Positions 5,049 to 62,288 of a stretch of DNA of 64,000 nucleotides are shown in pieces. The translations under genes were made by a program, and so were the position numbers. The notes under the pieces were generated by a model. That model was given only the letters and a program-made list of their open reading frames with translations. It was not told the origin of the DNA and searched no databases. The stretch is from a virus. Within the stretch, counting starts at the first letter, position 1. Every line of letters begins with the position of its first letter. The stretch is from positions 46,916-110,915 of the IMG/VR virus record IMGVR_UViG_3300028384_001046. One strand, written 5' to 3'.

Positions 5049-5060
5049 TAGAGGGAATCA

Positions 5061-5855: not shown

Positions 5856-5861
5856 TAAATA
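5854..5861 (+). promoter_or_regulatory. Late promoter box GATAAATA
   Basis: The box overlaps the stop of Cys-rich copy 2 and lies 20 bases before copy 3. It matches the T4 late -10 TATAAATA in 7 of 8 bases. Confidence 0.5.
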
Positions 5862-5881
5862 ACTATTAAATAGGACTCCTA

Positions 5882-8242: not shown

Positions 8243-8251
8243 TTTTGGTGT

Positions 8252-8259
8252 ACTAAATA
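8252..8259 (+). promoter_or_regulatory. Late promoter box ACTAAATA
   Basis: This late-type octamer in the 60-base gap lies 43 bases before the glycosyltransferase start. It probably drives the whole plus-strand glycan operon up to 15412, whose genes overlap or nearly touch. Confidence 0.5.
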
Positions 8260-8302
8260 AATCAGAATAGATCATTCTTTATCATCCCGTTTGGAGTTGT
8301 AT

Positions 8303-9457
8303 ATGAGACCCAAGGCATTTTTTATTAATGGAGGAGCTGGCAGAGTACTTTGCTCCATCCCTGCATTTGAAAAATATGCAGAAGAACATGATGATTTTAT
8401 CATTGTTGCTGAAGGAGGCACTGACTTTTTTAAGGGTCATCCCACCTTAGATGGTAAAGTCTATGATGTTTGGCACAAGAATTTGTTCCAAGAACATCTG
8501 AAACACAGAGATTGTGTTTCTCCAGAACCATACAGAATGTGGCATTACTACAACCAGAAGTGTAGTTTGACACAGGCTTTTGATATGGAAATCAACGGTC
8601 TAGAAGAACCTAGAGAACTTCCCAAACCAACTCTCAACCTCACTAAGATGGAGGTTATTGCTGGTTACAATATGGTTCAGGAAGTAAAAGCAGTAACTGG
8701 TAAAGATAAAGTAGTTGTTATCCAACCCTTCGGTAGAGGTGTCGAACAAGTAGGTGACTTTATTGCAGACGCTTCTTCTAGAAGCATGTCTCTAGTAAAC
8801 ACTGTAGACATCATCAATGACCTTAAAAAGGATTATGGTGTCATTGTCATGTCCGAAATTCAATTCCCTGTAGAAGAAAACGAAGATAAGTCTAAGTATA
8901 AAATTGCAAGACCCCAGATTGAAGACATTCGAGTTTGGGCATCTGTAATTGATGTTGCAGACCACTTCCTAGGTGTGGATAGTATTGGTCAACATATCTG
9001 TAAGGCTTTAGATAAAAAGGCAACCGTTGTAATCGGATCCACATATCCAGTCAATATTTCTTATCCAGAAGATAAGAACTTTGATATCATTGATATTGGT
9101 TTGGATAAGAGAAAATATTCTCCCATTAGATTGACAATGGATGAAGCTGTTGATCGTTATAATGATCAATCAATGGAAATGTCTAAAGATGATATTAGTA
9201 AAGTTCTAAGTTCTGTTAGAAAAGCTATGGGTAAACCCGCTACTTTTAAGGGAACTTACACTCCTGTTCAACAACAGCAAGATTGTCCTACATGCCCACC
9301 AGGAACTAAGACAACTCCCGCCGTTGCACCAGGAAGCGCTGCAATGATGCCGCAACAACAATGGAATCAACCACCAGTTATCGCGGAGAAACCCAAAAAA
9401 CCAAAAGTAGGATTCAAACAGGAAGTAAAGAATCTCTTAAAGACTGAAACTAAGTGA
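8303..9457 (+). CDS. GT9/heptosyltransferase-like glycosyltransferase
   Basis: ATG 8303 is preferred over the in-frame TTG 8291 because TTGGAG sits 6 bases before it. The protein has 384 residues. The start (FFINGGAGRVLCSIPAFEKY) looks like the N-terminal nucleotide-sugar fold of ADP-heptose:LPS heptosyltransferases. The segment VDSIGQHICKALDKKATVVI corresponds to their DSGP.H.AaAl.k..v.lfG signature. The last 70 residues are low complexity, rich in Pro, Gln and Lys, and include a CPTC pair; they look like a flexible tail. Genes for ADP-heptose synthesis lie downstream in the same operon, so a heptose or related sugar is the natural donor candidate, by inference. Confidence 0.55.
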   Translation: MRPKAFFINGGAGRVLCSIPAFEKYAEEHDDFIIVAEGGTDFFKGHPTLDGKVYDVWHKNLFQEHLKHRDCVSPEPYRMWHYYNQKCSLTQAFDMEINGLEEPRELPKPTLNLTKMEVIAGYNMVQEVKAVTGKDKVVVIQPFGRGVEQVGDFIADASSRSMSLVNTVDIINDLKKDYGVIVMSEIQFPVEENEDKSKYKIARPQIEDIRVWASVIDVADHFLGVDSIGQHICKALDKKATVVIGSTYPVNISYPEDKNFDIIDIGLDKRKYSPIRLTMDEAVDRYNDQSMEMSKDDISKVLSSVRKAMGKPATFKGTYTPVQQQQDCPTCPPGTKTTPAVAPGSAAMMPQQQWNQPPVIAEKPKKPKVGFKQEVKNLLKTETK

Positions 9458-9466
9458 GGTATTTAA

Positions 9467-11263
9467 ATGTCACAATGGATTGCGGCTATTGCCCGAGGAC
9501 ATAACTCGGGTCTTTGTCTCCTGAAAGATGGAGAAATTGTATTATCGATTGAGGAAGAAAGACTTTCTAGGAACAAGTATGATGGTGGTCCATATGCTTG
9601 TATGACCAGAATCCTGGATTTTACTGACAAACTAGACTATCTTGTTATTGCACATACCCAACCACTAAGTGAGGCTGGTCATTGTGATTTTAGTGGAGAT
9701 CCAATCTATGTTGCATTAGCAAGAAAGTTGGGGTTGATTGATAGACATGCAAACCCACATGAACATCCACAAGTTATTGACCTAAGTTCTACTCATCATA
9801 AACTTCATGCAGCATGTGCATTTTATAGATCAGGTTTTGATCGCGCTGCTGCAGTTGTTGTTGATGGTGCAGGCACTTTTATTCCCATGAATATTAATGG
9901 GGAAAATGAAATGACATGGGAACTAGAGTCCATGTTTAATTGTGAGTATCCATCCGAATTTAAAACTGTCTACAAGCACCAAGGTGGAAGAGGTCCATGG
10001 GGATCTATTAGATTTGAAGAGTTTAGTAGTGAGAGAGAAGGTGAAGAAGGCACTCATGAGATGATTCTTGATGAGAGCGCTGGCATTACCAAAGCGTATG
10101 AAGCGGTAACTCAATATTGTGGTTGGGCACCTATCGAAGCTGGTAAGACTATGGGTTTATTCCCATATGGAAAACCCAACGATCATATTCCAGATGTATA
10201 TACCGATTATAATGGTACTGCAACATGGAAAACATCTAATAGGGACCTTATTGTACCAACCTATCCTAACGGTGCCGTAGTCAACCAGGGGCGGTTTAAG
10301 TTCCTTCAGACTGACTATGACTATGAAGGAGATAAGACCCTCTTAGAGAACCGTAGAGACATGGCATACGCCATTCAAGTAGAGTCTCAGCAAATGGTTT
10401 TGGATCTTATTCGTAAAGTTGTAGATATGACTGGTCAAACTAATGTTGTATTGACTGGTGGATATGCATTAAATTGTGTTGCTAACTATTGGTATCTTGA
10501 ACAACTCAAAGATGAAGGTATTAACTTATTCGTAGAACCAGTAAGTAATGATGCTGGTACTGCAATTGGAGCAGCACTCCTTCAATATCATAGAGTAACG
10601 AAAGATGCACAAGTCCGTGAACCACTAAAAACCCTTTATACTGGATTTGAATACATGTATGCAACCGATGAAATTGTAGATACTGCAGATAAGTATGAGT
10701 CTACGAGAGTCTTTGAAGCTACAAACAAAGATGTAATTGATCTAATTACCAACAAAAATATTGTTGCTGTTTTCCAAGGTAGATCTGAAGCTGGTCCTAG
10801 AGCACTGGGCAATCGTTCTATTCTATATGATCCTCGCGATCCTGATGGAAAAGACTTTGTTAATAAGGTAAAACGTCGTGAATATTTCCGACCATTCGCT
10901 GGGTCAATTCTAAAAGAACATGTTCATGAATGGTTTGATCTTCGTGGCATGGATGAAACTCCATTTATGATGTATGCTGTTAAGTGTAAGGAGGGTATTG
11001 AGGAAAAAATTCCTGCAATTATTCACGTTGATGGAACTTGTAGAATCCAAACAGTCACTGAAGAACAGAACAAAAATTATCATGATCTGATTAGAGAGTT
11101 CTATGAAGCTACTGGTTGTCCTATTGTCTTCAACACTTCTTTTAATCTGGGTGGCGAGCCTCTCGTTGAAACACTTGATGACGCTTGCAGAACCCTCGCT
11201 AACTCTGATATTGAATACCTGTACTTGCCCGAATATGGTTTGATGATTGAGGTTAAAAACTAA
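9467..11263 (+). CDS. Carbamoyltransferase, NodU/TobZ family (full length)
   Basis: The protein has 598 residues, the usual family length. The N-terminal Kae1/ASKHA-like domain (about 1-400) shows RGHNSGLCLLKDGEIV, IEEERLSR, HH..HA (HHKLHAACAFYRSGF), VVVDGAGTF, GKTMGLFPYGK and LTGGYALNCVAN. The C-terminal YrdC-like domain contains GRSEAGPRALGNRSI and REYFRPFAGSI, followed by VFNTSFNLGGEPLVE. The family makes carbamoyl-adenylate from carbamoyl phosphate and ATP and moves the carbamoyl group to a hydroxyl of a sugar or antibiotic. The ribosome site is GAGG, 7 bases before the ATG. Its neighbours are glycosyltransferase and heptose genes, so a glycan is the likely acceptor. Confidence 0.85.
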   Translation: MSQWIAAIARGHNSGLCLLKDGEIVLSIEEERLSRNKYDGGPYACMTRILDFTDKLDYLVIAHTQPLSEAGHCDFSGDPIYVALARKLGLIDRHANPHEHPQVIDLSSTHHKLHAACAFYRSGFDRAAAVVVDGAGTFIPMNINGENEMTWELESMFNCEYPSEFKTVYKHQGGRGPWGSIRFEEFSSEREGEEGTHEMILDESAGITKAYEAVTQYCGWAPIEAGKTMGLFPYGKPNDHIPDVYTDYNGTATWKTSNRDLIVPTYPNGAVVNQGRFKFLQTDYDYEGDKTLLENRRDMAYAIQVESQQMVLDLIRKVVDMTGQTNVVLTGGYALNCVANYWYLEQLKDEGINLFVEPVSNDAGTAIGAALLQYHRVTKDAQVREPLKTLYTGFEYMYATDEIVDTADKYESTRVFEATNKDVIDLITNKNIVAVFQGRSEAGPRALGNRSILYDPRDPDGKDFVNKVKRREYFRPFAGSILKEHVHEWFDLRGMDETPFMMYAVKCKEGIEEKIPAIIHVDGTCRIQTVTEEQNKNYHDLIREFYEATGCPIVFNTSFNLGGEPLVETLDDACRTLANSDIEYLYLPEYGLMIEVKN

Positions 11264-11670
11264 TGAAGACAGTTTTTGTTAATGGTACATTTGATATCCT
11301 TCATCCAGGACACATTGAATTATTTCGAGTAGCAAAGTCTCTTGGTGATCGTGTAGTCGTCGCTACTGATAGTGATGCTAAGATCAAAAAAGACAAGGGA
11401 CCAACTAAACCGATTAATGATTTGTGTTATCGAGTATCAATGCTTAAGTCAATTAAGTATATTGATGTTGTTCATTATTTCCATGACAGATCTGGTTTGG
11501 AGAGTTTAATTAGGCTCTATAGACCAGATATTCTCCTTTTGGGGGGTGATTGGGAAGGCGGAGATGTTGTCGGTAAAGATCTTGCCAAAGAAGTTAGATT
11601 TCTTCCAAGAGTAGGAGACTACTCATCTAGTGCTGTTATTAATAAAATTCTAACAAATCATTCAACCTGA
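11263..11670 (+). CDS. HldE/RfaE2-type ADP-heptose nucleotidyltransferase
   Basis: The protein has 135 residues. The start GTFDILHPGHIELF carries the HxGH motif of the cytidylyltransferase superfamily. GPTKPINDLCYRVSML, LLLGGDW and a SSSAVINKI end match the C-terminal domain of HldE (RfaE domain II). That domain attaches AMP to D-glycero-beta-D-manno-heptose 1-phosphate. The start overlaps the carbamoyltransferase stop (TAATG). The kinase half follows as a separate gene; in most Gram-negative bacteria the two are fused with the kinase first, so here the order is reversed and the halves are split. Confidence 0.75.
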   Translation: MKTVFVNGTFDILHPGHIELFRVAKSLGDRVVVATDSDAKIKKDKGPTKPINDLCYRVSMLKSIKYIDVVHYFHDRSGLESLIRLYRPDILLLGGDWEGGDVVGKDLAKEVRFLPRVGDYSSSAVINKILTNHST

Positions 11671-12455
11671 TGAATTATAATATATTAGTTATTGGCGACT
11701 CCTGTGAAGATGAATATATCTATGGAGATTGTTCTAGATTAAATCCAGAGGGACCCATTCCCGTTCTTGATAAAACTTCTACAGAAGTCAAGGCAGGAAT
11801 GGCAGCAAATGTTAATGCAAACTTGAAGTCACTTGGAATTAAAACTAATCTAATTACTCAAAAAGAGACAATCAAAAAAACAAGATTTGTTGATAGAAAG
11901 AGTAATTATCAATTACTTAGAGTTGATTCTACACCTGAGGTGACTCCTTTAAGCGCTCCTCAGGTCAAGATGGCATTCATGCACAGTCGATATGATGCAT
12001 TAGTAATATCCGATTATAATAAGGGGTTTCTTACAATCCAATCAATGCAGACTATTTGTACGTATTTTAGGGGTCCTATTTTCATTGACACTAAAAAGAC
12101 TAAGTTATTCCAACAATCTAATGTTTTTTACAAAATAAACAAGAAGGAATATGATCTACTTGATAGGGAATATATGCCCAGTGATACTAATCTAATCGTC
12201 ACTTTGGGAGCAAACGGATGCAAATGGAGTGGTATCCATTTTCAACCAAGAACTGTCAATGTATTTGACGTATGCGGAGCTGGTGATACCTTTCTCGCGG
12301 CATTAGTTTCTGAGTTTCTTGTTACAAAAGATATGCAAAGGTCTATTGATCTTGCAAATAGAGCAGCTTCTATCTCTGTAGAAAACCCAGGAACATATCA
12401 ACTAACTAGATCTGATATTGAGAGGATTTATAATGAGCGAATTCAAACAACCTAA
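11670..12455 (+). CDS. HldE/RfaE1-type heptose 7-phosphate kinase (PfkB family)
   Basis: The protein has 261 residues and a ribokinase/PfkB fold. Seen motifs: VIGDSCEDEYIYGDCSRLNP at the N-terminus, AGMAANVNANLKSLG, VISDYNKGFL, and the C-terminal PfkB signature DVCGAGDTFLAALV with the catalytic GAGD. The N-terminal pattern (GD...D.Y..G...R..PE.P.PV) is typical of the HldE kinase domain. It is somewhat shorter than the bacterial domain. It overlaps the preceding nucleotidyltransferase (TGATG), so the two are probably made together and supply consecutive kinase and adenylylation steps. Confidence 0.75.
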   Translation: MNYNILVIGDSCEDEYIYGDCSRLNPEGPIPVLDKTSTEVKAGMAANVNANLKSLGIKTNLITQKETIKKTRFVDRKSNYQLLRVDSTPEVTPLSAPQVKMAFMHSRYDALVISDYNKGFLTIQSMQTICTYFRGPIFIDTKKTKLFQQSNVFYKINKKEYDLLDREYMPSDTNLIVTLGANGCKWSGIHFQPRTVNVFDVCGAGDTFLAALVSEFLVTKDMQRSIDLANRAASISVENPGTYQLTRSDIERIYNERIQTT

Positions 12456-12978
12456 TCCAATATTTTGGATGCCTTTCTTTATCGAACCAATCGATGTCGA
12501 TAAATTAGAATTTAAAGAGGAACCAAACTATAAACCAACGTTTATTTCAAGAACTCCAACTACAATGGAGGAGGATTGTCTCACTGATGAATCATACAAT
12601 TATCTTGGTAGATTGATTTGGGAATGTATTGGTCAATATACAGAAAAACCTTTTTTCATTGGTTCTGTTTGGCGTAATAAGTATGGAAAGACTGATTGGC
12701 AAGATCCACATATTCATTCTGGAGCTCAATGGAGTTTTGTAATTTACGTGGATGTTGAAGAGTCCAAGACAGTTTTTCTTTCTCCAAGCAGACACGATCA
12801 GATGAATCAATGGGGATATTTGGGTAACGCATTTCCTATTGATTATTCACCTAAAGTTTCTCCTGGAAATATTATAATTTTCCCATCATTCATCGAACAC
12901 TTTGTTCCCCCTGGAAATGAAGGTATAACTATATCAGGTAACATTTATTATGATCAACCCCCTGGAGGACCATGCTAA
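12433..12978 (+). CDS. Putative 2OG-Fe(II) oxygenase (short, sugar island)
   Basis: ATG 12433 is used, with AGAGG 8 bases upstream. The protein has 181 residues. The central part has DPHIHSGAQWSFVIYVDV, the metal-binding HxH/beta-strand pattern of this oxygenase group. A distal GNIIIFPSFIEHFVPP supplies the second metal histidine. The end ITISGNIYYD is where related proteins carry an Arg that binds 2-oxoglutarate (compare ERISIAGNI in the protein at 53947). Here Gly-Ile precedes the segment, so the usual arginine is not evident. It overlaps the kinase gene by 23 bases and the next gene by 7. The substrate is unknown. Confidence 0.5.
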   Translation: MSEFKQPNPIFWMPFFIEPIDVDKLEFKEEPNYKPTFISRTPTTMEEDCLTDESYNYLGRLIWECIGQYTEKPFFIGSVWRNKYGKTDWQDPHIHSGAQWSFVIYVDVEESKTVFLSPSRHDQMNQWGYLGNAFPIDYSPKVSPGNIIIFPSFIEHFVPPGNEGITISGNIYYDQPPGGPC

Positions 12979-21585: not shown

Positions 21586-21834
21586 ATGAAGTCATTTCAA
21601 AAATTTCTGGGTGAAGGTGTGGAGAGAATTGCACAATATGGAAATTATTACAGCATAACTTTAGTTTTTAGGGGATCAACCAGAACTCTTCAAATGTTCT
21701 TTCCACAAAGAGGAAGACCTATGAAGAAAGATGTCCAGAATGAAGTCGAAAAAGTATATCCTGGAGCAAAAGTAATTTACTTTTATCCTGCAGTAAAAGA
21801 TCCTAGAGAACCTCTTTTTATGGTAAACCCCTGA
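21586..21834 (+). CDS. Small protein with capsid-targeting-type leader
   Basis: The protein has 82 residues. Its first eleven, MKSFQKFLGEG, have the form of the T4 capsid-targeting sequence MKTYQEFIAEA found on internal proteins IPI-III and Alt. gp21 cuts after the Glu of an (L/I)xE site, so FLGE|G is a predicted cleavage point. The same FLGE|A motif occurs in gp23 of this phage. The mature part (about 72 residues, basic, with a YYSITLVFRG strand and VYPGAKVIYFYP) is unknown to me. It lies between gp16 and gp17 and has a late promoter. I infer a small internal head protein delivered with the DNA. Confidence 0.6.
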   Translation: MKSFQKFLGEGVERIAQYGNYYSITLVFRGSTRTLQMFFPQRGRPMKKDVQNEVEKVYPGAKVIYFYPAVKDPREPLFMVNP

Positions 21835-27269: not shown

Positions 27270-27297
27270 TATTTGATTATGCCTCAAGTGAATCTAA

Positions 27298-28968
27298 ATG
27301 GCTAGGTTGTTTGGTTTTAAAATTGATAAGGGAGACGATGCTTCAAAGAGCATCGTTTCTCCCGTCCCAAAGTCCGATGAGGATTCATCGGACTTTTATG
27401 TTAGCAGCGGCTTTTATGGTCAGTACGTAGATATTGATGGCGTCTATAAGTCAGAGTTTGATTTAATTAAAAGATATCGAGAAATGGCTCTGCATCCAGA
27501 AGTGGATAGTGCTATTGAAGATATTATAAATGAGGCGATTGTCTCGGATCAGAACGATTCCCCCATTCAAATTGATCTATCGAATCTCCCTGCTTCGGAA
27601 AAACTTAAAGAACTTATTAGAGATGAGTTTAAGAAGATCAAAGAAATCATGGACTTTGATAAAAAGTGCCATGAAATCCTCCGTAACTGGTATGTCGATG
27701 GAAGAATCTTCTATCACAAAGTAATTGATCTCAAAAAACCAGAAGAAGGTATTCAGGAAGTAAGATATATTGATCCACTGAAAATTAAGTACGTTAGAAA
27801 ACTGAAGAAGAAAGACAACGTACAACAAACTGTTGCAAGAATTCAAAGTCAAGATAATCCTCTTACTCCAGAAATCGAAGAGTATTATCTCTACGATCCA
27901 AATACTCAGGCAGCAAAAAATAATGTTGGAGCTATTGGACAACCAGCATTCAAAAATGTAACTAAACCAGTAAAAATTGCTATTGATGCAGTTACGTTCT
28001 GTCACTCTGGATTAGTAGATAGAAACAAACAAACAATTCTTTCATATCTTCACAAGTCTATTAAGGCACTCAATCAACTTCGTATGATTGAAGACAGTCT
28101 GGTTATCTATAGATTGTCGCGTGCTCCAGAAAGAAGAATTTTCTATATTGATGTGGGCAATCTTCCTAAGATTAAAGCAGAACAATATCTAAAAGATGTA
28201 ATGAGCCGTTATCGTAATAAACTTGTTTACGATGCTGGAACTGGTGAGGTCAGAGATGACCGCAAGCACATGAGTATGTTAGAAGACTTCTGGCTTCCTC
28301 GTCGTGAAGGTGGTCGTGGTACTGAAATCACAACTCTTCCTGGTGGACAGAACTTAGGCGAACTATCCGATATTGAGTATTTCCAGAAAAAACTTTACAG
28401 AGCACTTGGTGTTCCCGAGTCTCGTATTGCTGGATCTGGAGAAGGTTTCAACCTCGGTCGTTCTTCCGAAATTCTTAGAGACGAAATTAAGTTTACTAAG
28501 TTCGTCGGTAGAATGAGAAAGAGATTCTCTGGTGTTTTTAGCGATATGCTGAAGACTCAGTTAATCCTGAAAAACATTGTTACCCCAGAAGATTGGGAAA
28601 TTTTGTCTGATCATATTCAATATGATTTTGTATATGATAATCACTTTGCCGAACTAAAGGAAACAGAACTTCTTAATGAGAGACTTGGAACTGCTGCTGC
28701 AGTTGACCCATATCTTGGTAAGTACTTCTCTCTTGAGTATGTTAGAAGACATGTCCTCAAACAGAAGGATGAAGAAATTATAGAGATTGATAAACAGATT
28801 GAGAAAGAAATTAAAGATGGTAAGTTGATAGATCCAATGGAAATTCAACAGATGGAAATGGGAGCTGGAGAAGATTTGGGATCTCCTGTCACAGAACCAG
28901 AAATTGATGCATCCGCCGTAGAAGCTGATGGATCATCAATGGAGATGCCCAAGGGAGGGGAAATATAA
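27298..28968 (+). CDS. gp20: Portal protein gp20
   Basis: The protein has 556 residues (T4 524). Conserved gp20 segments are visible: FYGQYVDIDGVYKSEFDLIK, YREMALHPEVDSAIEDIINE, NWYVDGRIFYHKVID, EVRYIDPLKIKYVRK, FYIDVGNLPKIKAEQYLKDV, FWLPRREGGRGTEITTLPGG and YRALGVPESRIAGSGEGFNL. The dodecameric portal is the vertex for head assembly, packaging and tail joining. The C-terminal 50 residues are acidic and Met/Gln-rich. Confidence 0.95.
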   Translation: MARLFGFKIDKGDDASKSIVSPVPKSDEDSSDFYVSSGFYGQYVDIDGVYKSEFDLIKRYREMALHPEVDSAIEDIINEAIVSDQNDSPIQIDLSNLPASEKLKELIRDEFKKIKEIMDFDKKCHEILRNWYVDGRIFYHKVIDLKKPEEGIQEVRYIDPLKIKYVRKLKKKDNVQQTVARIQSQDNPLTPEIEEYYLYDPNTQAAKNNVGAIGQPAFKNVTKPVKIAIDAVTFCHSGLVDRNKQTILSYLHKSIKALNQLRMIEDSLVIYRLSRAPERRIFYIDVGNLPKIKAEQYLKDVMSRYRNKLVYDAGTGEVRDDRKHMSMLEDFWLPRREGGRGTEITTLPGGQNLGELSDIEYFQKKLYRALGVPESRIAGSGEGFNLGRSSEILRDEIKFTKFVGRMRKRFSGVFSDMLKTQLILKNIVTPEDWEILSDHIQYDFVYDNHFAELKETELLNERLGTAAAVDPYLGKYFSLEYVRRHVLKQKDEEIIEIDKQIEKEIKDGKLIDPMEIQQMEMGAGEDLGSPVTEPEIDASAVEADGSSMEMPKGGEI

Positions 28969-28999: not shown

Positions 29000-29245
29000 A
29001 TGGATGACCTTATTGATTTGATTGTGAATAATGAATCTCCAACGGAAATTCATTCTAAGATCAAAGATGTTCTTTTTGCAAAGTCTGCTGAGAATATCGA
29101 AACCATTCGTCCAGCTATCACAGCTGATATGTTTGGTGGTCCCAATCCTTGGGTTGATCAATTAGATGATGCGGAGCCAGAAACTGATGAAGTGGAGGCA
29201 TCTGCAGAAGTTGAAGAACCTGCCGAGGAACCAGAGGAAGAATGA
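29000..29245 (+). CDS. gp67: Prohead core protein gp67-like
   Basis: The protein has 81 residues, the same size as T4 gp67 (80). The N-terminus MDDLIDLIVNNESPTEIHSK and its helical continuation parallel T4 gp67 (MEGLIEAIKSNDLVAARKLF), and the last 30 residues are almost all Glu, Asp, Ala and Pro. T4 gp67 is an acidic scaffold-core component that gp21 degrades during head maturation. The position between 20 and 21 is also the same. The overlap with gp21 (GAATGAAA) suggests coupled translation. Confidence 0.75.
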   Translation: MDDLIDLIVNNESPTEIHSKIKDVLFAKSAENIETIRPAITADMFGGPNPWVDQLDDAEPETDEVEASAEVEEPAEEPEEE

Positions 29246-29967
29246 AACTTATTACCGAAGAAATCGAATCAGCTAAGGTTCTTGTCGAAGAAAAAGACGG
29301 CAAGAAATCTATGTTTATTGAGGGTATTTTCCTTCAAGGAAACCTAAAGAATAGAAATGGTCGTTTCTATCCTGTTGAAACTCTTCAAAAAGAAGTAAAC
29401 AGATATACCGAGTCTTTCATTTCTAAGGGTCGTGCTCTTGGTGAGCTTGGCCACCCCGATGGACCAACGGTAAATCTCGATAGAGTTTCCCATAAGATTG
29501 TTGATCTTCATAAAGAAGGAACCAATTTTATTGGAAAGGCTAAACTTCTCGATACACCTATGGGCAAAATTGCTCAGTCATTAATTGATGAGGGTGTTCA
29601 ACTGGGAGTTTCTTCCAGAGGAATGGGAAGTCTACGTGACACAAACGAAGGTTATAAGGTAGTAGGCGAAGATTTTATGCTTGCTACTGCTGCTGATATT
29701 GTCGCAGATCCTTCTGCTCCTGACGCTTTTGTTAATGGAATTATGGAAGGAGTTGAGTGGATTTGGGACGCTGGTCTTCTCAAAGCACAAACTACAATTA
29801 AAGAAGCAACAGTTGAAGAAACCGTTGCAGTAATTGAAAAAGAACCAGAAGAAGTTGTCGAAGAGACGATTGAGAAAACTAAGAAAACTATAAATACCTT
29901 AGTTAAACAACAAAGACTTGATGAGAAGAAATTGGAACTATTCCAAAACTTCCTATCAAATCTTTGA
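29242..29967 (+). CDS. gp21: Prohead core scaffold and protease gp21
   Basis: The protein has 241 residues (T4 212). Seen: FIEGIFLQGNLKNRNGRFYP, RALGELGHPDGPTVNLDRVS with the catalytic His, and GVQLGVSSRGMGSLR with the catalytic Ser of the U9/S49-like phage proteases. The C-terminal 65 residues are acidic with many Glu-Glu and Val-Glu pairs, fit for self-cleavage. It cuts scaffold and capsid proteins after (L/I)xE. Possible targets in this phage are gp23 (FLGE|A) and the two proteins with capsid-targeting leaders. Confidence 0.95.
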   Translation: MKLITEEIESAKVLVEEKDGKKSMFIEGIFLQGNLKNRNGRFYPVETLQKEVNRYTESFISKGRALGELGHPDGPTVNLDRVSHKIVDLHKEGTNFIGKAKLLDTPMGKIAQSLIDEGVQLGVSSRGMGSLRDTNEGYKVVGEDFMLATAADIVADPSAPDAFVNGIMEGVEWIWDAGLLKAQTTIKEATVEETVAVIEKEPEEVVEETIEKTKKTINTLVKQQRLDEKKLELFQNFLSNL

Positions 29968-30024: not shown

Positions 30025-31110
30025 ATGTCTCGTGGAGATTTACAAGAAATGGAAGTAGGCACTAAGCAATCCAAAACCGCTGTTAATAGTGGTGCAAAGG
30101 CTGGTGAACCCATGCCAAAAGCACCTAACTATGTTCCCGACAACGGTGCCGTTGAGGATCTCGGTGGTCCAACCCCCGAGAATTCTAAACCAGACGATAA
30201 TTCTAATGCGCTTAAGACTCCTACCCAGACGATTAAGCAAGTTAAGGATGTAGTCAACAAGGGCGCTAAACCTGCTGAACCCATGACACAAGCACCTAAG
30301 TACGCTGAAGAAACTGAAGCATCTGCTGAAGAAGAGGTAATTTCCGAAGAGGAGACTACCGAACAGGAGAGCATCATCGACATCGACGCTGCAATTGCAG
30401 AAGATGTTGAAGCACTCCTGGGCGGTGAAGAACTCTCAGAAGAATTCAAAGAGAAGGCTAAACTGATCTTTGAAGCTTCTATTACTGCTAAGATCACAGA
30501 TATCGAAAATCAAATCGTCGAGGCTTACGAACAAAAACTCGTAGAGGAAGTTGAAACCCTTAAGGTTGAACTTACCGAGAGACTTGATTCGTACCTTGAG
30601 TATGTCGCTGAAGAATGGCTTGAGGAAAACGCTCTCTCCGTTGAGCGTGGAATCAAGACAGAAATGACCGAATCCTTCCTTGAAGGAATGAAGGGTCTTT
30701 TTGAAGAACATTATGTATCTCTTCCTGAAGATAGATACGATGTACTTGAGAGCATGGTAGACAAACTTGATGAAATGGAGACTAAACTCAACGAGCAAAT
30801 CGAAAGAAATATTGCTCTAAATAGTAAGCTGTCGGAATCGACTGCTGAGACCGTCATGAATAATGTTGCTGAAGGACTTGCAGTTTCTCAAAAAGAAAAA
30901 CTTGCAACCCTCGCAGAAGGTGTTGAGTTTGAAAGTGAAGAAAGCTATCGTGAAAAACTAGAAACACTGAAGGAGTCATACTTCGGTGGAAAGACTAGTT
31001 CTTCCAAGACGAAAGAGACACAAGTTCTCAAAGAAGAAGCCGAACACGTAGAAGCACCTACTGGTTCTATGGCTGCATATCTAAGAGCACTCTCTAACGT
31101 CAAACAGTGA
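30025..31110 (+). CDS. gp22: Prohead scaffold gp22
   Basis: The protein has 361 residues, highly acidic and predicted to be largely helical (ITAKITDIENQIVEAYEQKL, ETLKVELTERLDSYLEYVAE). This is typical of gp22, the main core protein on which the prohead shell forms. The first 100 residues are longer than in T4 and contain a degenerate duplication: NSGAKAGEPMPKAPNYVPDN and NKGAKPAEPMTQAPKYAEET. Several (L/I)xE sites could be cut by gp21. It lies directly upstream of gp23. Confidence 0.85.
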   Translation: MSRGDLQEMEVGTKQSKTAVNSGAKAGEPMPKAPNYVPDNGAVEDLGGPTPENSKPDDNSNALKTPTQTIKQVKDVVNKGAKPAEPMTQAPKYAEETEASAEEEVISEEETTEQESIIDIDAAIAEDVEALLGGEELSEEFKEKAKLIFEASITAKITDIENQIVEAYEQKLVEEVETLKVELTERLDSYLEYVAEEWLEENALSVERGIKTEMTESFLEGMKGLFEEHYVSLPEDRYDVLESMVDKLDEMETKLNEQIERNIALNSKLSESTAETVMNNVAEGLAVSQKEKLATLAEGVEFESEESYREKLETLKESYFGGKTSSSKTKETQVLKEEAEHVEAPTGSMAAYLRALSNVKQ

Positions 31111-31147: not shown

Positions 31148-32539
31148 ATGCAACAAAACATCAATTACCAACAGCTCACTGAAAAGTGGGCTCCTCTTCT
31201 AGACTACGATGGTCTAGATAACATCAAAGACGCTCACAGACGTAACGTTACCGCAGTTCTTCTTGAGAACCAAGAGCAAATGCTCAAGGAAGAAGCATCC
31301 TTCCTTGGTGAAGCATCTCCAACTAACTCTGCAGGTACAGGTGGATTCGGTGGAGACTCAGCTGCAGCTGGTCCTGTTGCTGGTTTCGACCCAGTTCTGA
31401 TCTCCCTGATCAGACGTGCAATGCCTAACCTGGTCGCTTATGACCTCGCAGGCGTTCAACCAATGAGTGGTCCTACTGGACTCATCTTCGCAATGCGTTC
31501 CCGTTACACCAACCAGAGCGGAACCGAAGCACTGTTCAACGAGCCCGATACTGCATTCGCAGGTCAGAACGACGGTGGTACTCTTACTGCAGGTCAAACT
31601 GATCAGGCTGCTGGTTTCGGTACAGGTTCTCAGTCGGGTACTAACCCTGCAGTTCTGAACCCTGTTGGTTCTGCAACTACCTCCGCTTACAACGTTGGTC
31701 AGGGTATGGCCACTGGTGAGTCTGAGGCACTCGGAGATGGTTCTGGCAACCACTTCAATGAGATGGCATTCTCGATCGAGAAGGTCACCGTTACTGCGAA
31801 GTCCAGAGCACTGAAAGCTGAGTACTCCTTAGAACTCGCACAAGACCTCAAGGCAATCCACGGTCTGAATGCTGAGGCTGAGTTGGCAAACATTCTCTCC
31901 ACAGAGATTCTTGCTGAAATCAACCGCGAAGTCATTCGTTCCATCTACAAGGTTGCTGAACAGGGTGCAACTCTTAACACCGCTACCGCTGGTGAGTTCG
32001 ACCTCGATGTTGACTCCAACGGACGCTGGTCGGTTGAGAAGTTCAAGGGTCTACTCTTCCAAATCGAAAGAGACGCTAACCAGATCGCACAAAGAACTCG
32101 TAGAGGGAAGGGCAACGTTGTTCTCTGCTCCGCAGACGTTGCTTCCGCACTCACGATGGCAGGCATTCTGGATTACACTCCTGCACTCAACGCTAACCTC
32201 AACGTTGATGACACTGGCAACACCTTCGCTGGTACACTTGCTGGTAAGTACAAGGTCTACATCGACCCATTTGCTGCAAACAACGCTGCAAATCAGTACT
32301 ACGTTGTTGGTTATAAGGGAACTTCCCCTTATGATGCAGGTATGTTCTACTGCCCATATGTTCCTCTCCAGATGGTTCGCGCCGTTGGTCAGGACACCTT
32401 CCAACCAAAAATTGGATTCAAGACTCGCTACGGCATGGTCGCAAATCCATTCGCAGAAGGAACTGATCAGGGTCTCGGTAGACTCCTCGCTAACTCCAAC
32501 CGTTACTACAGAAGAGTTACCGTTAAGAACCTCATGTGA
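31148..32539 (+). CDS. gp23: Major capsid protein gp23
   Basis: The protein has 463 residues. The HK97-like core shows LISLIRRAMPNLVAYDLAGV, QPMSGPTGLIFAMRSRYTNQ, MAFSIEKVTVTAKSRALKAE, YSLELAQDLKAIHGLNAEAE and LANILSTEILAEINREVIRS, all hallmark gp23 blocks. Near the N-terminus SFLGEASP gives a predicted gp21 cut after Glu55 (T4 cuts after residue 65). The mature shell protein would have about 408 residues. It is followed by a strong terminator. Codon choice is shifted to C-ending codons relative to neighbours, as expected for a highly expressed gene. Confidence 0.97.
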   Translation: MQQNINYQQLTEKWAPLLDYDGLDNIKDAHRRNVTAVLLENQEQMLKEEASFLGEASPTNSAGTGGFGGDSAAAGPVAGFDPVLISLIRRAMPNLVAYDLAGVQPMSGPTGLIFAMRSRYTNQSGTEALFNEPDTAFAGQNDGGTLTAGQTDQAAGFGTGSQSGTNPAVLNPVGSATTSAYNVGQGMATGESEALGDGSGNHFNEMAFSIEKVTVTAKSRALKAEYSLELAQDLKAIHGLNAEAELANILSTEILAEINREVIRSIYKVAEQGATLNTATAGEFDLDVDSNGRWSVEKFKGLLFQIERDANQIAQRTRRGKGNVVLCSADVASALTMAGILDYTPALNANLNVDDTGNTFAGTLAGKYKVYIDPFAANNAANQYYVVGYKGTSPYDAGMFYCPYVPLQMVRAVGQDTFQPKIGFKTRYGMVANPFAEGTDQGLGRLLANSNRYYRRVTVKNLM

Positions 32540-50997: not shown

Positions 50998-53495
50998 GGT
51001 TCTACACTAACGTTTTCCAAATTGGTAATGACATTTTGATCCGTGGATATGAGAATGGGAAACACTTTAGTGATCGACAGAAGTTTCAACCAACACTGTA
51101 TGTTCCCACAAAAAGAAAGTCTAAGTGGCGAACTCTGGACAACATTCCAGTAGAACCAGTTCAACCTGGAACAATTAAAGACTGCAGAGAATTCATTGAC
51201 AAGTATAGTTCTGTCAATGGATTTGATGTCTTTGGGAACGAACGATATGTCCACCAATACATCTCTGAGATGTATCCTGAAGATGAAATTAAGTTTGATA
51301 TCAGTAAAATCAAACTAATTACGATTGATATTGAGGTTGCTGCAGAGAGCGGATTCCCAGATCCGTTTAACTGTGCAGAAGAACTTCTACTCATTACTAT
51401 TCAGGACTACAATACCAAGAAAGTTATTACTTTTGGGTCAAGACCTTACGCTAATCAAGACAGACCTAACTTTAAGTATGTTCAATGTCACGATGAAGAG
51501 GATCTGATCAGCAGGTTCTTGGCTTGGTGGCAAGAAAATACCCCAGAAGTTATCACTGGATGGAACTGTGAGTTTTACGACATTCCATATTTGACTGGTC
51601 GCATCGAAAGAATCATGGGTGAGAAAACCATGAAGAAGATGTCTCCCTGGAATATTCTCCGTCGTAACGAAATTGTCATTGCTGGTCGCAAGAATATCTC
51701 TTGTGATGTTGCGGGTATCTCAGTAATCGATTACCTAGATCTTTATAAGAAGTCTCCTGGCACCCCTAACCAGGAGAGTTATCGACTGGATCATATTGCC
51801 TCACAAGAACTAGGACAGAAGAAATTGGACCACTCGGAGTTTGATACCTTCCGAGAGTTCTATACTAAAGCCTGGGACAAGTTTGTTGACTATAACATTG
51901 TTGACGTGGAACTGGTGGATAAACTTGAGGATAAGTTGAAACTTATTGACTTGTGTCTTACCCGTGCATATGACGCTAAGGTCAACTTTAGCGATATTGC
52001 ATATCAGGTTCGCACCTGGGACGCAATCATTTACAACTATCTCAAGAAACAAAACATTGTTATTCCACAAAAGGAGAGGAATCAGAAAGATGAAAAATAT
52101 GCTGGTGCTTATGTTAAAGAACCTAAGCCTGGAGTTTATGAATGGGTGGTCAATTTTGACCTCAACTCCCTATACCCTCACCTCATTATGCAGTACAACA
52201 TCTCGCCAGAGACGCTACTGGATAAGAAACACCCATCAGCAACTGTAGATAAACTTCTGAACCAGGATATTACATTTGAAATGTATTCTGACTATGCAGT
52301 ATGTGCCAATGGTGCAATGTATAGGAAAGACAAGAAAGGTTTTCTCCCAGAATTGATGGAGAAGATGTATAACGAACGTGTCATCTTCAAGAAGAAGATG
52401 ATTCAAGCGAAGAAAGATTATGAGAAGACGCCTACTAAAGCACTTGAAAAGGAAATCGCTCGTTGCAATAACATTCAGATGGCGAAAAAGATTGCTCTTA
52501 ACTCTGCTTATGGCGCAATCGGTAATCAGTATTTCCGATATTATAAACTAGCTAATGCAGAGGCAATCACATTGTCTGGACAGGTCTCCATCCGATGGAT
52601 TGAGAACAAGATGAATTCATATATGAATCGTGTATTGAAAACAAAGGATGTAGATTATGTTATTGCTTCTGATACTGACTCTATCTACCTTAATATGGGT
52701 CCTCTGGTTGAAAATGTATACCAGGGAAGAGAGAAAACTACTGAAAGCATTGTCAAGTTCCTTGATAAGGTGTGTGAAGTGGAACTTGAGCCGTATATTG
52801 ACAGTTCTTACCAAGAACTCGCGGACTACGTGAACGCATACGATCAGAAGATGTTCATGAAACGAGAGAACATTGCTGATCGTGGTATCTGGACTGCTAA
52901 GAAGAGATACATTCTCAATGTATGGGACAGTGAGGGTGTTCGATATAAAGAACCCAAACTGAAGATTATGGGTATTGAAGCCATTAAGACTTCTACTCCT
53001 GCTCCTTGCCGTAAGATGATTAAGGATGGTCTGAAGTTGATGATGAGTGCAACTGAAGATGAGATGATTGACTTCATCGAAAAGTCTCGTAAAGAGTTTC
53101 ATGATCTCCCCCCATCAGATATTGCTTTCCCTCGAAGTGTTTCTGATATTAATAAGTGGAAGTCATCTTCGGATTTATATTCAAAGGGTACGCCTATCCA
53201 TGTTCGTGGAGCCATTCTTTACAATCACTATGTGAAACAAAAGAAACTTTCGGATAAGTATCAGGACATTCAAAGCGGAGAGAAGATCAAGTTTGTTTAT
53301 CTCAAAACTCCTAATCCTATTCATGAAAATGTGATGTCTTTTATCCAAGATTTCCCTTCCGAGTTTGACCTAGATAAGTATGTTGACTATGAACTTCAGT
53401 TCAGCAAATCTTTCATTGAACCCATCAAAGTGATCCTTGATTGTATTGGTTGGGAAGTTGAAAGGCGAAATACTTTAGAGGCATTTTTTTCATGA
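50994..53495 (+). CDS. gp43: DNA polymerase gp43 (family B)
   Basis: The protein has 833 residues (T4 898). The 3'-5' exonuclease has LITIDIEVAAESG (Exo I), VITGWNCEFYDIPYLTGRI (Exo II) and FVDYNIVDVELVDKLED (Exo III). Polymerase motifs are VNFDLNSLYPHLIMQYNISP (A), AKKIALNSAYGAIGNQYFRY (B) and VIASDTDSIYLNMG (C). The C-terminus ends in a clamp-binding-type hydrophobic tail (LEAFFS). gp43 copies phage DNA with gp44/62, gp45 and gp41. It overlaps the neighbours on both sides. Confidence 0.97.
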   Translation: MRFYTNVFQIGNDILIRGYENGKHFSDRQKFQPTLYVPTKRKSKWRTLDNIPVEPVQPGTIKDCREFIDKYSSVNGFDVFGNERYVHQYISEMYPEDEIKFDISKIKLITIDIEVAAESGFPDPFNCAEELLLITIQDYNTKKVITFGSRPYANQDRPNFKYVQCHDEEDLISRFLAWWQENTPEVITGWNCEFYDIPYLTGRIERIMGEKTMKKMSPWNILRRNEIVIAGRKNISCDVAGISVIDYLDLYKKSPGTPNQESYRLDHIASQELGQKKLDHSEFDTFREFYTKAWDKFVDYNIVDVELVDKLEDKLKLIDLCLTRAYDAKVNFSDIAYQVRTWDAIIYNYLKKQNIVIPQKERNQKDEKYAGAYVKEPKPGVYEWVVNFDLNSLYPHLIMQYNISPETLLDKKHPSATVDKLLNQDITFEMYSDYAVCANGAMYRKDKKGFLPELMEKMYNERVIFKKKMIQAKKDYEKTPTKALEKEIARCNNIQMAKKIALNSAYGAIGNQYFRYYKLANAEAITLSGQVSIRWIENKMNSYMNRVLKTKDVDYVIASDTDSIYLNMGPLVENVYQGREKTTESIVKFLDKVCEVELEPYIDSSYQELADYVNAYDQKMFMKRENIADRGIWTAKKRYILNVWDSEGVRYKEPKLKIMGIEAIKTSTPAPCRKMIKDGLKLMMSATEDEMIDFIEKSRKEFHDLPPSDIAFPRSVSDINKWKSSSDLYSKGTPIHVRGAILYNHYVKQKKLSDKYQDIQSGEKIKFVYLKTPNPIHENVMSFIQDFPSEFDLDKYVDYELQFSKSFIEPIKVILDCIGWEVERRNTLEAFFS

Positions 53496-53950
53496 AGAGA
53501 ATTATTACTTTAGTCACTGGTGGATTTGACCCCATTCACAGTGGACACATTGCATACTTTAAGAAAGCCAGAGAACTCACCAACTATCTGGTAGTGGGTC
53601 TGAATACAAACGAGTGGCTAAAGGATAAGAAAGGACAGTACTTTCAAGATTGGAAAGAACGTGCAGAGATCATTAGGCATTTGGAAATGGTTGATGCTGT
53701 GATTACGGTTCCATATGATGAGAAGGGATCTGCATGTGGAGCCATTGAGACTTGTCTGGGAATTGCACAGACAGTAGTCTTTGCCAATGGTGGTGATCGC
53801 GGAAAGGATAATACTCCAGAAGTTGATATGTATGGAGATAATCCTAGAGTTGAATTTGAATATGGTACTGGAGGAACTGATAAACTGAATAGTAGTTCTT
53901 GGTTACTTCACGATTACTTTAATAGACAGAGAAAAATTCTTGGTATATGA
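53492..53950 (+). CDS. Cytidylyltransferase-like nucleotidyltransferase
   Basis: The protein has 152 residues. VTGGFDPIHSGHIAYFKKAR carries the HxGH motif; LNTNEWLKDKKGQYFQDWKE, RAEIIRHLEMVD and VVFANGGDRGKDN are typical of TagD/RfaE2-type enzymes, and GGTDKLNSSSWLL stands where the ISST.i motif is expected. The family moves CMP or AMP to a phosphorylated polyol or sugar. The substrate is unknown. It overlaps the gp43 stop (ATGA) and precedes two oxygenase genes. Confidence 0.7.
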   Translation: MKRIITLVTGGFDPIHSGHIAYFKKARELTNYLVVGLNTNEWLKDKKGQYFQDWKERAEIIRHLEMVDAVITVPYDEKGSACGAIETCLGIAQTVVFANGGDRGKDNTPEVDMYGDNPRVEFEYGTGGTDKLNSSSWLLHDYFNRQRKILGI

Positions 53951-58962: not shown

Positions 58963-59679
58963 ATGGCAGGAACTCTAGCAGAAAGACAAGAAACTGGTCT
59001 TGTAGATGCAATCAATTTCTTCTCTGAGAAAAAAGGAGGCAAACCCTTCACTCTGCAGGCTGGTTCAACTAGATTAAATAATGTTCTTTCTGCTAATAAA
59101 GTAATGGGCAGATCTGCATCTGGTGATGAACCGTATACTGATGTAGAAATTAAAACCATAAACAGAATTTATAAACTGTCGATGAAAGGTCCCAGTGCTC
59201 CTAGTATGGCAGGTGGGGGACTAAACGGACTTGAAAAAATTGTACCTGGATTTAGTGGTAGATTTATTCGGGCAGCATATGAAAAGTATTTGCAACTTGG
59301 ATATACACAGGGACAACAGATTCCTGATATGTATGGTCAGATTGGTTCTGAATTGAAGGAGACTATTGTTCTCGGAACACAAGCAATGGGAGGTCCAATT
59401 ACCCATATGTATATCGGACCTATGGATGTTCATTCCACATCTAGTGGCAATGTTTTAACAGTGAATGGTAGACTTCATGATGCAAAGAAGTATGCAAGAG
59501 AACATGATCTTTATTTGCGACTTAGGAAAAGAAGAGCTGATCAACCCTTCGAGACAAATGAAAAGGATAAGAAAGGTCTTCCTTTGATTCTTGGTAAGTC
59601 TCCTAGTGCTGGTGATAAGGGTAGAAGAATTGTGATTGTGGCTAAACCACCATCAAATGCCATAGTGGTAACCTTTTAA
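58963..59679 (+). CDS. Probable virion-associated protein of unknown function
   Basis: The protein has 238 residues. Seen: ETGLVDAINFFSEKKGGKPF, STRLNNVLSANKVMGRSASG, YTDVEIKTINRIYKLSMKGP and THMYIGPMDVHSTSSGNVLT. It is basic at the C-terminus. The SMKGPSAPSMAGGGLNGLEK and MDVHSTSSGNVLTVNG regions give no clear family. Late promoter boxes before it and before both following genes suggest late expression and hence a structural or internal head protein. Confidence 0.55.
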   Translation: MAGTLAERQETGLVDAINFFSEKKGGKPFTLQAGSTRLNNVLSANKVMGRSASGDEPYTDVEIKTINRIYKLSMKGPSAPSMAGGGLNGLEKIVPGFSGRFIRAAYEKYLQLGYTQGQQIPDMYGQIGSELKETIVLGTQAMGGPITHMYIGPMDVHSTSSGNVLTVNGRLHDAKKYAREHDLYLRLRKRRADQPFETNEKDKKGLPLILGKSPSAGDKGRRIVIVAKPPSNAIVVTF

Positions 59680-59685
59680 TAAATA
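59678..59685 (+). promoter_or_regulatory. Late promoter box AATAAATA
   Basis: The octamer overlaps the stop of the preceding gene and lies 23 bases before the GTG start at 59709. Confidence 0.5.
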
Positions 59686-59708: not shown

Positions 59709-60998
59709 GTGAAAAGTTTCTTAGAATTTATTACTGAAGCCGTCAAGACCAATGCTTCCATTCAAGCCAAACAAAAAGGTTTGACTGGTGATGGCCATGG
59801 CGGGTGGTATGATAAAGGTGGAAAGTTTGTAGCAAAGACAGTTGACGGTAAGTTAAAATTCACAGGTTCTAAGGAGACTGGGAAGGATGATGCACCAAAA
59901 CAAGGCGGTTCATCTAAGCCTAATGTACCAGGGAAGACTGCGACTCCAGTTGATACATCCCCAAAACCTGTTGCCCAGACAAGTCAGAAAACCGACCAAG
60001 AAGATAGTACGAAAACGGCGACATCACCCGAAGAACAATCTCTAGAAACGATGGGGGATCCATCAAGTGATAGTGCTGTAATCGTCTTTGGTAGATTCAA
60101 CCCACCAACTATTGGTCACGAAAAACTTCTGAAATCTGCATCTAGTGAAGCGAAGAGAACTAGAGCGGATCTAAGAATTTATCCAAGTCGTACACAGGAT
60201 GCTAAGAAGAATCCTCTGGAACCTGCAACTAAGATTGAATATATGAGGATGATGTTCCCTGATTACGAGGATGAAATTAGGGATGATCCAGAAGCAAAAA
60301 CAATCTTCAATGTATTACAGTCTTGTTACGGTCTTGGTTATAGAGGAGTAACTATTGTCGTGGGTCAGGACAGACTCGCTGAGTTCCAAAGTCTTGCTCA
60401 GAAATATAATGGGGATCTCTATGAGTTTGATGAGATCAAAGTTATCTCTGCTGGCGCAAGAGATGCAGACTCTGATGGTGTGGAAGGTATGTCCGCATCT
60501 AAGATGAGAAAGGCTGCCAAGGATGGAGATTTCAAAGGTTTTGTGAAAGGTATTCCAAATACTTTGGGAAATATGGATAAGAAACAGTTGTTCAATACCC
60601 TACAGAAGAGTATGGGTGCATCTGTTACTGAAGATTGGGAAGTTGCTCCTAAGTTAGACCCAGAGGGGTTGAGAGTTGCTTATATGAAAAATGAAGTATT
60701 TGATTTGGGTTCACTGGTAGAAAATGTTAATACTGGAGAAGTTGGTAGAATCACAAGACGTGGTACAAATTATGTGATTTGTATGACTAAAGAAGGCACA
60801 ATCTTCAAGTCTTGGTTAAGAGATATTATGGAAGCATATGAGGTTGGAACAGATGATTATCGAGAGTATGTTCAGTCAATGACACCAGGACAATCCAAAA
60901 AGAAGTTTGGTTTTTTCAAAGGCAGAATTAAACCAACAGTTCGTCCATTAAAACCAAATGATCCTCCTTCAGGTCCAGGCACAAAATACAATAAATAA
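59709..60998 (+). CDS. NMNAT-like nucleotidyltransferase with capsid-targeting leader
   Basis: The start is GTG 59709. The protein has 429 residues. The first eleven residues, (M)KSFLEFITEA, match the T4 capsid-targeting sequence MKTYQEFIAEA; gp21 would cut at FITE|A. Residues 25-45 hold a GDGHGGWYDKGGKFVAKT module, followed by a Pro/Thr/Lys-rich linker. At about 118-275 lies the nucleotidyltransferase: VIVFGRFNPPTIGHEKLLKS (GxFxPxxxGH) and a late GMSASKMRKA in place of ISST.iR, as in NMN adenylyltransferases. The C-terminus carries NEVFDLGSLVENVNTGEVGR, TRRGTNYVIC and EGTIFKSWLRDI, a small beta-barrel-like domain. With late promoters around it, I infer an enzyme packaged in the head and delivered to the host. 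Confidence 0.7.
   Translation: MKSFLEFITEAVKTNASIQAKQKGLTGDGHGGWYDKGGKFVAKTVDGKLKFTGSKETGKDDAPKQGGSSKPNVPGKTATPVDTSPKPVAQTSQKTDQEDSTKTATSPEEQSLETMGDPSSDSAVIVFGRFNPPTIGHEKLLKSASSEAKRTRADLRIYPSRTQDAKKNPLEPATKIEYMRMMFPDYEDEIRDDPEAKTIFNVLQSCYGLGYRGVTIVVGQDRLAEFQSLAQKYNGDLYEFDEIKVISAGARDADSDGVEGMSASKMRKAAKDGDFKGFVKGIPNTLGNMDKKQLFNTLQKSMGASVTEDWEVAPKLDPEGLRVAYMKNEVFDLGSLVENVNTGEVGRITRRGTNYVICMTKEGTIFKSWLRDIMEAYEVGTDDYREYVQSMTPGQSKKKFGFFKGRIKPTVRPLKPNDPPSGPGTKYNK
60990..60997 (+). promoter_or_regulatory. Late promoter box AATAAATA
   Basis: The octamer overlaps the stop of the nucleotidyltransferase gene and lies 28 bases before the next ATG. Confidence 0.5.
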
Positions 60999-61025: not shown

Positions 61026-62288
61026 ATGTTTGATAAAAAGTATGATGCTGAAGAGCTAGCATCTATCTATAAGTCTGTGTATGAGAAGAAATTAGATCCT
61101 GTTGGTCAGGAAGATAAGGACATCGATAACGATGGAGATCATGATAAGTCCGATAAGTATCTTCTGAATCGCCGCAAGGTTCGTAGTGATGCTATCAAGT
61201 CGGGAATGCATCGTGATGCCAAGACTGGTAAGGAATCAATGAAGAATCCTCATTCTGAGTCGGTTGAGGTTGAAGAGGGTTATAAAGAGATTAGTTTTGA
61301 TAAACATCAGAAAATGTATAACAGATATAAGAACCTTAGCAAGGCTGCTATGAAAGATGCTCGTGATTCAGGTGAAGCATCTGGTGACAACAGAAGAAAG
61401 ATGGGTAAGATGATGCCTGTTATTAATAAGTCTTCTGAGAATCTGAGAAAGAAACAAACAAAAGGAGAACTCACTGGTAGAGGACCTAGAAAAGAAGAAG
61501 TTGAGTTGGACGAGAACCGTCGTGCTGCTCGTTCTGCTGGTGGTTATAAGGACGATTCTAAGAAGCAACCCGATCCTTCTAAGGATGGATTTACTGGTAT
61601 CGGTAACATGAGTATCGATGCAATCAGAAAGATGTCTGCTCGCATCGAGAAAGAAAAGACTAAGAAAGAAGAAGTCGAAGTAGTTGACGAGGGCAGCATG
61701 AAGAAAGCCCGCGAGAACGTTGGCGCTTCTACATGTTGGGATGGATATAAGGCCAAGGGAACCAAGAAAAAGAATGGTCGTGAAGTTCCTAACTGTGTGA
61801 AGGAAGAAGAAGAACTAGAAGAGGATAAGAAGGAACTCTCTAGAGAAAAGAGAAACAAGATGTTCCGCCGTGCTGGTAACCTTTCCAGAGAAGCTCTGCA
61901 GGGTGGTGACAAAGGATCTGAAGCACATAAGAAGTCTGGAAAGATTGTCAAGGCACTCAACAAAGATGCCGAAGAGAACAACAGAAATGATGTTAGAGAG
62001 GAAACTCTGAGAGACATCTACGAAGGTAAGAAGAAAGGTCTCTGGGACAACATTCATGCCAAACGTAAGCGTGGTGAGAAACCTGCAAAGCCTGGTGATG
62101 AGGACTATCCCAAGACTTTGAAAATCGAGTCCAATGAAAAATTGGAAGAAGCAGCTCCCGCTCTCGTTGGTGTACTTGCCAAGATGGCTGCAAAAAAAGC
62201 AGCAGTTCATGTTGCAAAGAAGGGTGCTGAAAAAGTAAAGGATAAGATGGGTAAACTCCTCAAGGGAGATGAAGAGGAGGAAGGTTGA
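61026..62288 (+). CDS. Highly charged internal/core protein with EF-hand-like loop and internal repeat
   Basis: The protein has 420 residues, with Lys, Arg, Glu and Asp in nearly half of positions. DIDNDGDHDKSDKYLLNR (about 33-50) resembles an EF-hand or dockerin calcium loop. Two diverged repeats are visible: near 87-140 (KEISFDKHQKMYNRYKNLSK) and near 270-320 (KELSREKRNKMFRRAGNLSR). GASTCWDGYKAKG and CVKEEEE form a small two-Cys module. The end is Ala/Lys-rich with an amphipathic helix. Many (L/V/I)xE sites could be cut by gp21. It resembles proteins of cyanophage heads with basic DNA-contact regions; the role is inferred. Confidence 0.6.
   Translation: MFDKKYDAEELASIYKSVYEKKLDPVGQEDKDIDNDGDHDKSDKYLLNRRKVRSDAIKSGMHRDAKTGKESMKNPHSESVEVEEGYKEISFDKHQKMYNRYKNLSKAAMKDARDSGEASGDNRRKMGKMMPVINKSSENLRKKQTKGELTGRGPRKEEVELDENRRAARSAGGYKDDSKKQPDPSKDGFTGIGNMSIDAIRKMSARIEKEKTKKEEVEVVDEGSMKKARENVGASTCWDGYKAKGTKKKNGREVPNCVKEEEELEEDKKELSREKRNKMFRRAGNLSREALQGGDKGSEAHKKSGKIVKALNKDAEENNRNDVREETLRDIYEGKKKGLWDNIHAKRKRGEKPAKPGDEDYPKTLKIESNEKLEEAAPALVGVLAKMAAKKAAVHVAKKGAEKVKDKMGKLLKGDEEEEG

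Follow-up and report, generated by a model that had tools for sequence, protein, structure and literature searches.

A putative late-expressed nucleotidyltransferase with a T4-type capsid-targeting leader in a relative of Synechococcus phage Sf-FS3

The internal proteins IPI-IPIII of phage T4 are expressed late by a phage that encodes the gp21 protease, and they carry a 10-residue leader with F/Y at position 4, F at 7, I/L at 8 and E at 10, which is cut off before an alanine. The leader of IPII (record X04567), MKTYQEFIAE, is annotated as removed in this way. According to mutational work in T4, residues 4 and 7 mainly govern capsid targeting, residues 8 and 10 govern processing, and gp21 cleaves behind the motif L/I-X-E (PMC9026906). 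The protein described here shares this leader, late expression and the presence of gp21, although the T4 internal proteins are small restriction inhibitor cargo, whereas it is a large multi-domain enzyme whose processing is predicted. It also resembles the T4 ADP-ribosyltransferase Alt as a head-packaged enzyme that is expected to act early in infection, while the catalytic domains of the two differ.

More closely related are the T4-GC190 cytidylyltransferases of the Kyanoviridae (S-SSM7 SSSM7_194, S-SM1 SSM1_190 and S-SCSM1 ORF91), which are orthologous to our protein and have the same leader and the same domains. In S-SSM7 and S-SM1 the gene lies downstream of gp41-mazG. The published descriptions of T4-GC190 that we consulted make no mention of a capsid-targeting leader or a gp21 site, and in the open-licence literature capsid targeting sequences and cyanophages were found together in a T4 review alone. 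An injected "NMNAT" was already proposed by the authors who described S-SCSM1 (PMC9602691). The presence of the enzyme in virions and the idea of its entry into the host are published; the association of the leader and gp21 site with this cargo appears to be new.

The window that we analysed, a stretch of 64,000 nucleotides, is part of a 110,915-base IMG/VR record. The open reading frame at 59709-60998 (+ strand) was confirmed as a real gene that encodes 429 aa and has a GTG start; the position of the start is kept in relatives, close ones having GTG and others ATG. Its closest named relative is from Synechococcus phage Sf-FS3 (99% protein identity), and identity falls to 59% for S-SSM7, where the orthologue is labelled GC190, and to about 50% for S-SCSM1. 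The protein matches PHROG 395 (E=4e-100), with homology across the catalytic domain, and on sequence grounds is an orthologue of the cyanophage core family T4-GC190, which has matches in 557 phage records, mainly of cyanomyoviruses.

Behind the leader (residues 1-10, MKSFLEFITE; 59709-59738, +) lies a small beta module with the motif GHGGWYD (residues 12-53; 59742-59867, +), which is predicted with a pLDDT of about 91-93 for residues 21-50 and whose HMM also matches the S-CREM2 kinase ORF14, where the module directly follows the leader, and S-CREM2 ORF12. A disordered linker (residues 54-119; 59868-60065, +), 27-94 residues long in relatives, joins it to a HIGH-superfamily nucleotidyltransferase domain (residues 120-306; 60066-60626, +), followed by a second small beta domain (residues 331-378; 60699-60842, +). 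This C-terminal domain stands alone in S-PM2 p144 (4800-5075 of its record) and PHROG 4808, which are labelled ribonucleotide reductase alpha and consist of just this domain; the label is probably an annotation error that has spread through cyanophages.

The first residues of the protein, MKSFLEFITEA, fit the T4 head-loading tag, with agreement at the targeting positions 4 and 7 and the processing positions 8 and 10. The predicted gp21 site, I-T-E/A between E10 and A11 (59736-59741, +), matches the IPII cut, the L/I-X-E rule and the gp23 site of the same phage. Among 86 orthologous metaviral loci extracted by tblastn, 84 match the leader motif outright; of the remaining two, one has the leader shifted by two residues (MMTKSLSQFLTEA) and one is on a contig truncated at its 5′ end. 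Because these 86 loci are the ones closest to the query, the frequency of the leader across the whole family is lower, and the relatives from S-PM2, P-HM2 and giant phages lack it. The leader is under selection, as the 84 outright matches indicate. An alignment of 70 proteins shows no variation at M1, F7 or E10; K2 and F4 are present in at least 90%, while positions 5, 6 and 9 vary with entropies above 2 bits each. The conserved residues of the predicted leader coincide with those to which T4 genetics assigned targeting and cleavage.

Head proteins with which such a leader would operate are likewise encoded in the window. A gp21 prohead protease (Peptidase_S77, PF03420, E=4.5e-39) is found at 29242-29967 (+), a gp22-type scaffold protein, inferred from its position between gp21 and gp23 in the T4 order, at 30025-31110 (+), and the gp23 major capsid protein at 31148-32539 (+). 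The cut site of this gp23, ASFLGE/A (E55/A56), aligns with GSFLTE/A of T4, and both the protease and a matching gp23 site are present, as for T4-type cargo. A late-promoter box, (N)ATAAATA, lies at 59679-59685 (+), 30 nt before the start codon. The same heptamer is found within 100 nt upstream of 53 of 84 orthologues, mostly 26-32 nt ahead of the start, vs 4.2% of random positions. It also precedes the portal gene, the gene at the gp67 position and gp22 in the window, where all 14 copies are on the + strand; this total is no excess over chance, and only strand and position stand out. The next gene downstream (61026-62288, +) has a late box at 60991 and has short segments in common with neighbouring proteins that were detected in the virions of S-SCSM1 and S-SZBM1.

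Mass spectrometry of purified virions has revealed orthologues in S-SM1 (PMC3037559), S-SCSM1 (ORF91, annotated NMNAT; PMC9602691), S-SZBM1 (2 peptides; PMC9146016) and S-CREM2 (3 peptides; PMC10665884), the signal being weak in the last two. All four carry the leader: MKKFSAFLNE/A in S-SM1, MKSFLQFLKE/A in S-SCSM1, MRFRQFIIE/A, shorter by one residue, in S-SZBM1, and MKNFSSFLTE/A in S-CREM2. The S-PM2 protein, which has no leader, was absent from the proteins detected in S-PM2 virions; this is a single case, and other genuine virion proteins were missed there too. In S-CREM2 the leader motif is present in 6 of 52 virion proteins vs 1 of 167 others (p=0.0008), and a tighter form in 4 of 52 vs 0 of 167 (p=0.003); among the tagged virion proteins there are a kinase-like protein and an S-AdoMet lyase (70 bits in Pfam). 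A loose form of the motif was not enriched among the virion proteins of S-SCSM1. The conserved leader, the presence of gp21, gp22 and gp23 in the window and the virion mass spectra of four orthologues that carry the leader together strongly support packaging in the capsid by means of a T4-type leader. The initial annotation had noted a capsid-targeting N-terminus with a gp21 cut site (FITE/A) and a late promoter box in front of the gene, both of which are confirmed as sequence features, and had predicted packaging.

Because the leader match is accompanied by close relatives in purified virus particles, the enzyme is probably delivered together with the DNA; injection is a reasonable proposal by analogy with the T4 internal proteins and Alt. 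If a protein made late and addressed to the head acts at all, it does so in the host infected next. We consider it likely that the protein is a late-expressed head cargo that is docked by its leader, cut by gp21, leaves with the DNA and acts as a nucleotidyltransferase in the new host. The leader and its conservation, the late box, the domain and the head genes gp21, gp22 and gp23 are read from the sequence, and presence in purified virions comes from published mass spectrometry of relatives, while the mechanism and its timing are what we infer: while the prohead assembles, the N-terminal helix M1-E10 would dock on gp22 in the scaffold core, gp21 would cut after E10, and the resulting 419-residue enzyme would remain in the head and exit with the DNA. 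Its HIGH-superfamily domain would then transfer a nucleotidyl group in the new host, NMN being a possible and not a favoured substrate. The leader would thereby provide a sequence-level mechanism for the repeated, unexplained occurrence of a nucleotidyltransferase in cyanophage virions, which the authors of those studies could not separate from contamination.

Assignment to the HIGH superfamily follows from the motifs GxFxPxxxGH and SxSxxR and a predicted Rossmann-like fold. The first, catalytic motif, GRFNPPTIGH (G128-H137), lies at 60090-60119 (+) and the second, SASKMR (S262-R267), which resembles ISSTxxR, at 60492-60509 (+); across 70 sequences, G128, R129, N131, P132, G136, H137, S262, S264 and R267 show no variation. 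AlphaFold gives a pLDDT above 90 at residues 121-250 and 261-300, Foldseek returns PPAT (ranked first), NadD and human NMNAT at E values of 1e-4 to 1e-3, and PF01467 is barely over threshold (21.2 bits vs a cut-off of 21). The only match in a PDB profile search, MJ0951 UPF0348, was so weak (E=0.001 with 11 sequences, 0.12 with 70) that no substrate claim is built upon it, and PADLOC gave no match. Two more CTP_transf_like proteins without a leader are encoded on the contig, at about 11262-11670 and 53495-53950, one of them TagD-like (GTFDILHPGH).

The most durable alternative retains packaging and injection and makes the protein a genuine NMN/NaMN adenylyltransferase by which host NAD is restored, for example against NAD-depleting defences. 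NMNAT-type models are the commonest weak NCBIfam matches below the generic superfamily model (53 and 50 of 70 members), and the S-SCSM1 orthologue was annotated and proposed as an NMNAT (PMC9602691). However, the NMNAT equivalog models score far under their curated cut-offs on our protein (12.9 vs 341 bits and 13.0 vs 112 bits), several adenylyltransferase models match the family weakly, CoaD models match 20 of 70 members, and PPAT, first in Foldseek, fits the fold equally well. A NAMPT/NAPRT partner is absent from the window's contig, which is a fragment, and from all 12 cyanophage-type records searched. In the giant phage K64-1, where NAMPT does occur, it is adjoined by a separate NadM-Nudix, and that phage has its own leaderless homologue of our protein in addition. 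NadM-Nudix has the same superfamily fold; unlike it, the window protein lacks a Nudix domain and a NAMPT partner and is below the cut-offs of all NMNAT models. We rejected an NMNAT identity by sequence and, for the contig fragment and the 12 records searched, membership in a NAMPT + NMNAT salvage pathway, and regard this alternative as unlikely. Of the NMNAT-like catalytic domain in the initial annotation, the nucleotidyltransferase fold stands (PF01467, Foldseek), while NMNAT specificity is not supported and the suggested action on NAD is weakened accordingly.

Less likely still is that the packaged protein serves to assemble or organise the head, a role proposed for IPIII, with any enzymatic role secondary and nothing useful delivered. 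IPIII affects head morphogenesis in T4 (PMC9026906), the two extra non-catalytic domains are conserved about as much as the enzyme domain, and neighbours of the gene are also virion proteins in S-SCSM1. Against this stand the invariance of the motif residues G128, H137, S262, S264 and R267 and the retention of the enzyme domain in giant phages, where it stands alone. That the protein is instead an abundant late cytoplasmic enzyme which co-purifies with virions, its leader being a coincidental N-terminal helix, is very improbable, because, although the S-CREM2 and S-SCSM1 proteome authors caution that co-purification is possible (S-SCSM1: PMC9602691), detection was repeated in four phages, the conserved leader residues are exactly those of the T4 signal and recur in unrelated proteins, and the S-CREM2 virion fraction is enriched in leader-bearing proteins.

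The occurrence of the leader on unrelated proteins extends beyond S-CREM2. Viral contigs were searched with a DNA pattern for MKxFxxFLxEA; of 116 readable matches, 71 belong to the T4-GC190 family and at least 29 head other, unrelated ORFs, among which are proteins with DUF6267 or DUF192 and one with a weak peptidase-like match. These other ORFs have in common M1, K2, F4, F7, E10 and A11 alone, with L8 nearly so; because these positions were set by the search pattern, except for F8-type variation, the telling point is not the identity of the residues and instead that many unrelated long reading frames begin with them. In complete phage genomes, a related pattern gave 13 matches and its reversed control 0. 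The leader is in this sense a portable tag, from which one can predict which of the many uncharacterised proteins of very abundant ocean phages reach the host at time zero. More tentatively, with the balance slightly against it, marine T4-like phages might practise modular delivery, in which the leader, often together with the GHGGWYD module, is placed on interchangeable enzymes and each virion carries a host-modifying kit whose contents the leader alone reveals. Its members might, with equal reserve, be a nucleotidyltransferase and a kinase with leader and module, and a SAM lyase, a GNAT acetyltransferase and DUF6267 with the leader alone.

Several further loci carry leader-like starts. A second leader ORF in the window (21586-21834, +; MKSFQKFLGE/G, 82 aa), homologous to S-SCSM1 gp030 (E=1e-7) and followed directly downstream by a 550-aa ORF in the place of the large terminase gene, is a candidate small head cargo. 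S-CRM01_185 (1546-1941 of its record), annotated as an acetyltransferase, begins with MKTFDEFLTE and is a candidate further packaged enzyme. S-CREM2 ORF12 (7704-10313 of its record), a virion protein annotated Cas9/Csn1, combines the leader-like start LRFASFMAE/A with the GHGG module and has no Pfam match, so that the Cas9 label looks unsupported. DUF6267 (T4-GC71) was not found as a neighbour or fusion partner in the window's contig fragment, and the upstream gene there differs in this from that of several relatives. In many relatives DUF6267 is the upstream neighbour, and it is joined with the nucleotidyltransferase in PHROG 455. Copies in three records (27296-28270, 5149-6393 and 11478-12671) have a K-x-D-G motif like that of covalent nucleotidyltransferases/ligases, and some DUF6267 copies themselves bear the capsid leader.
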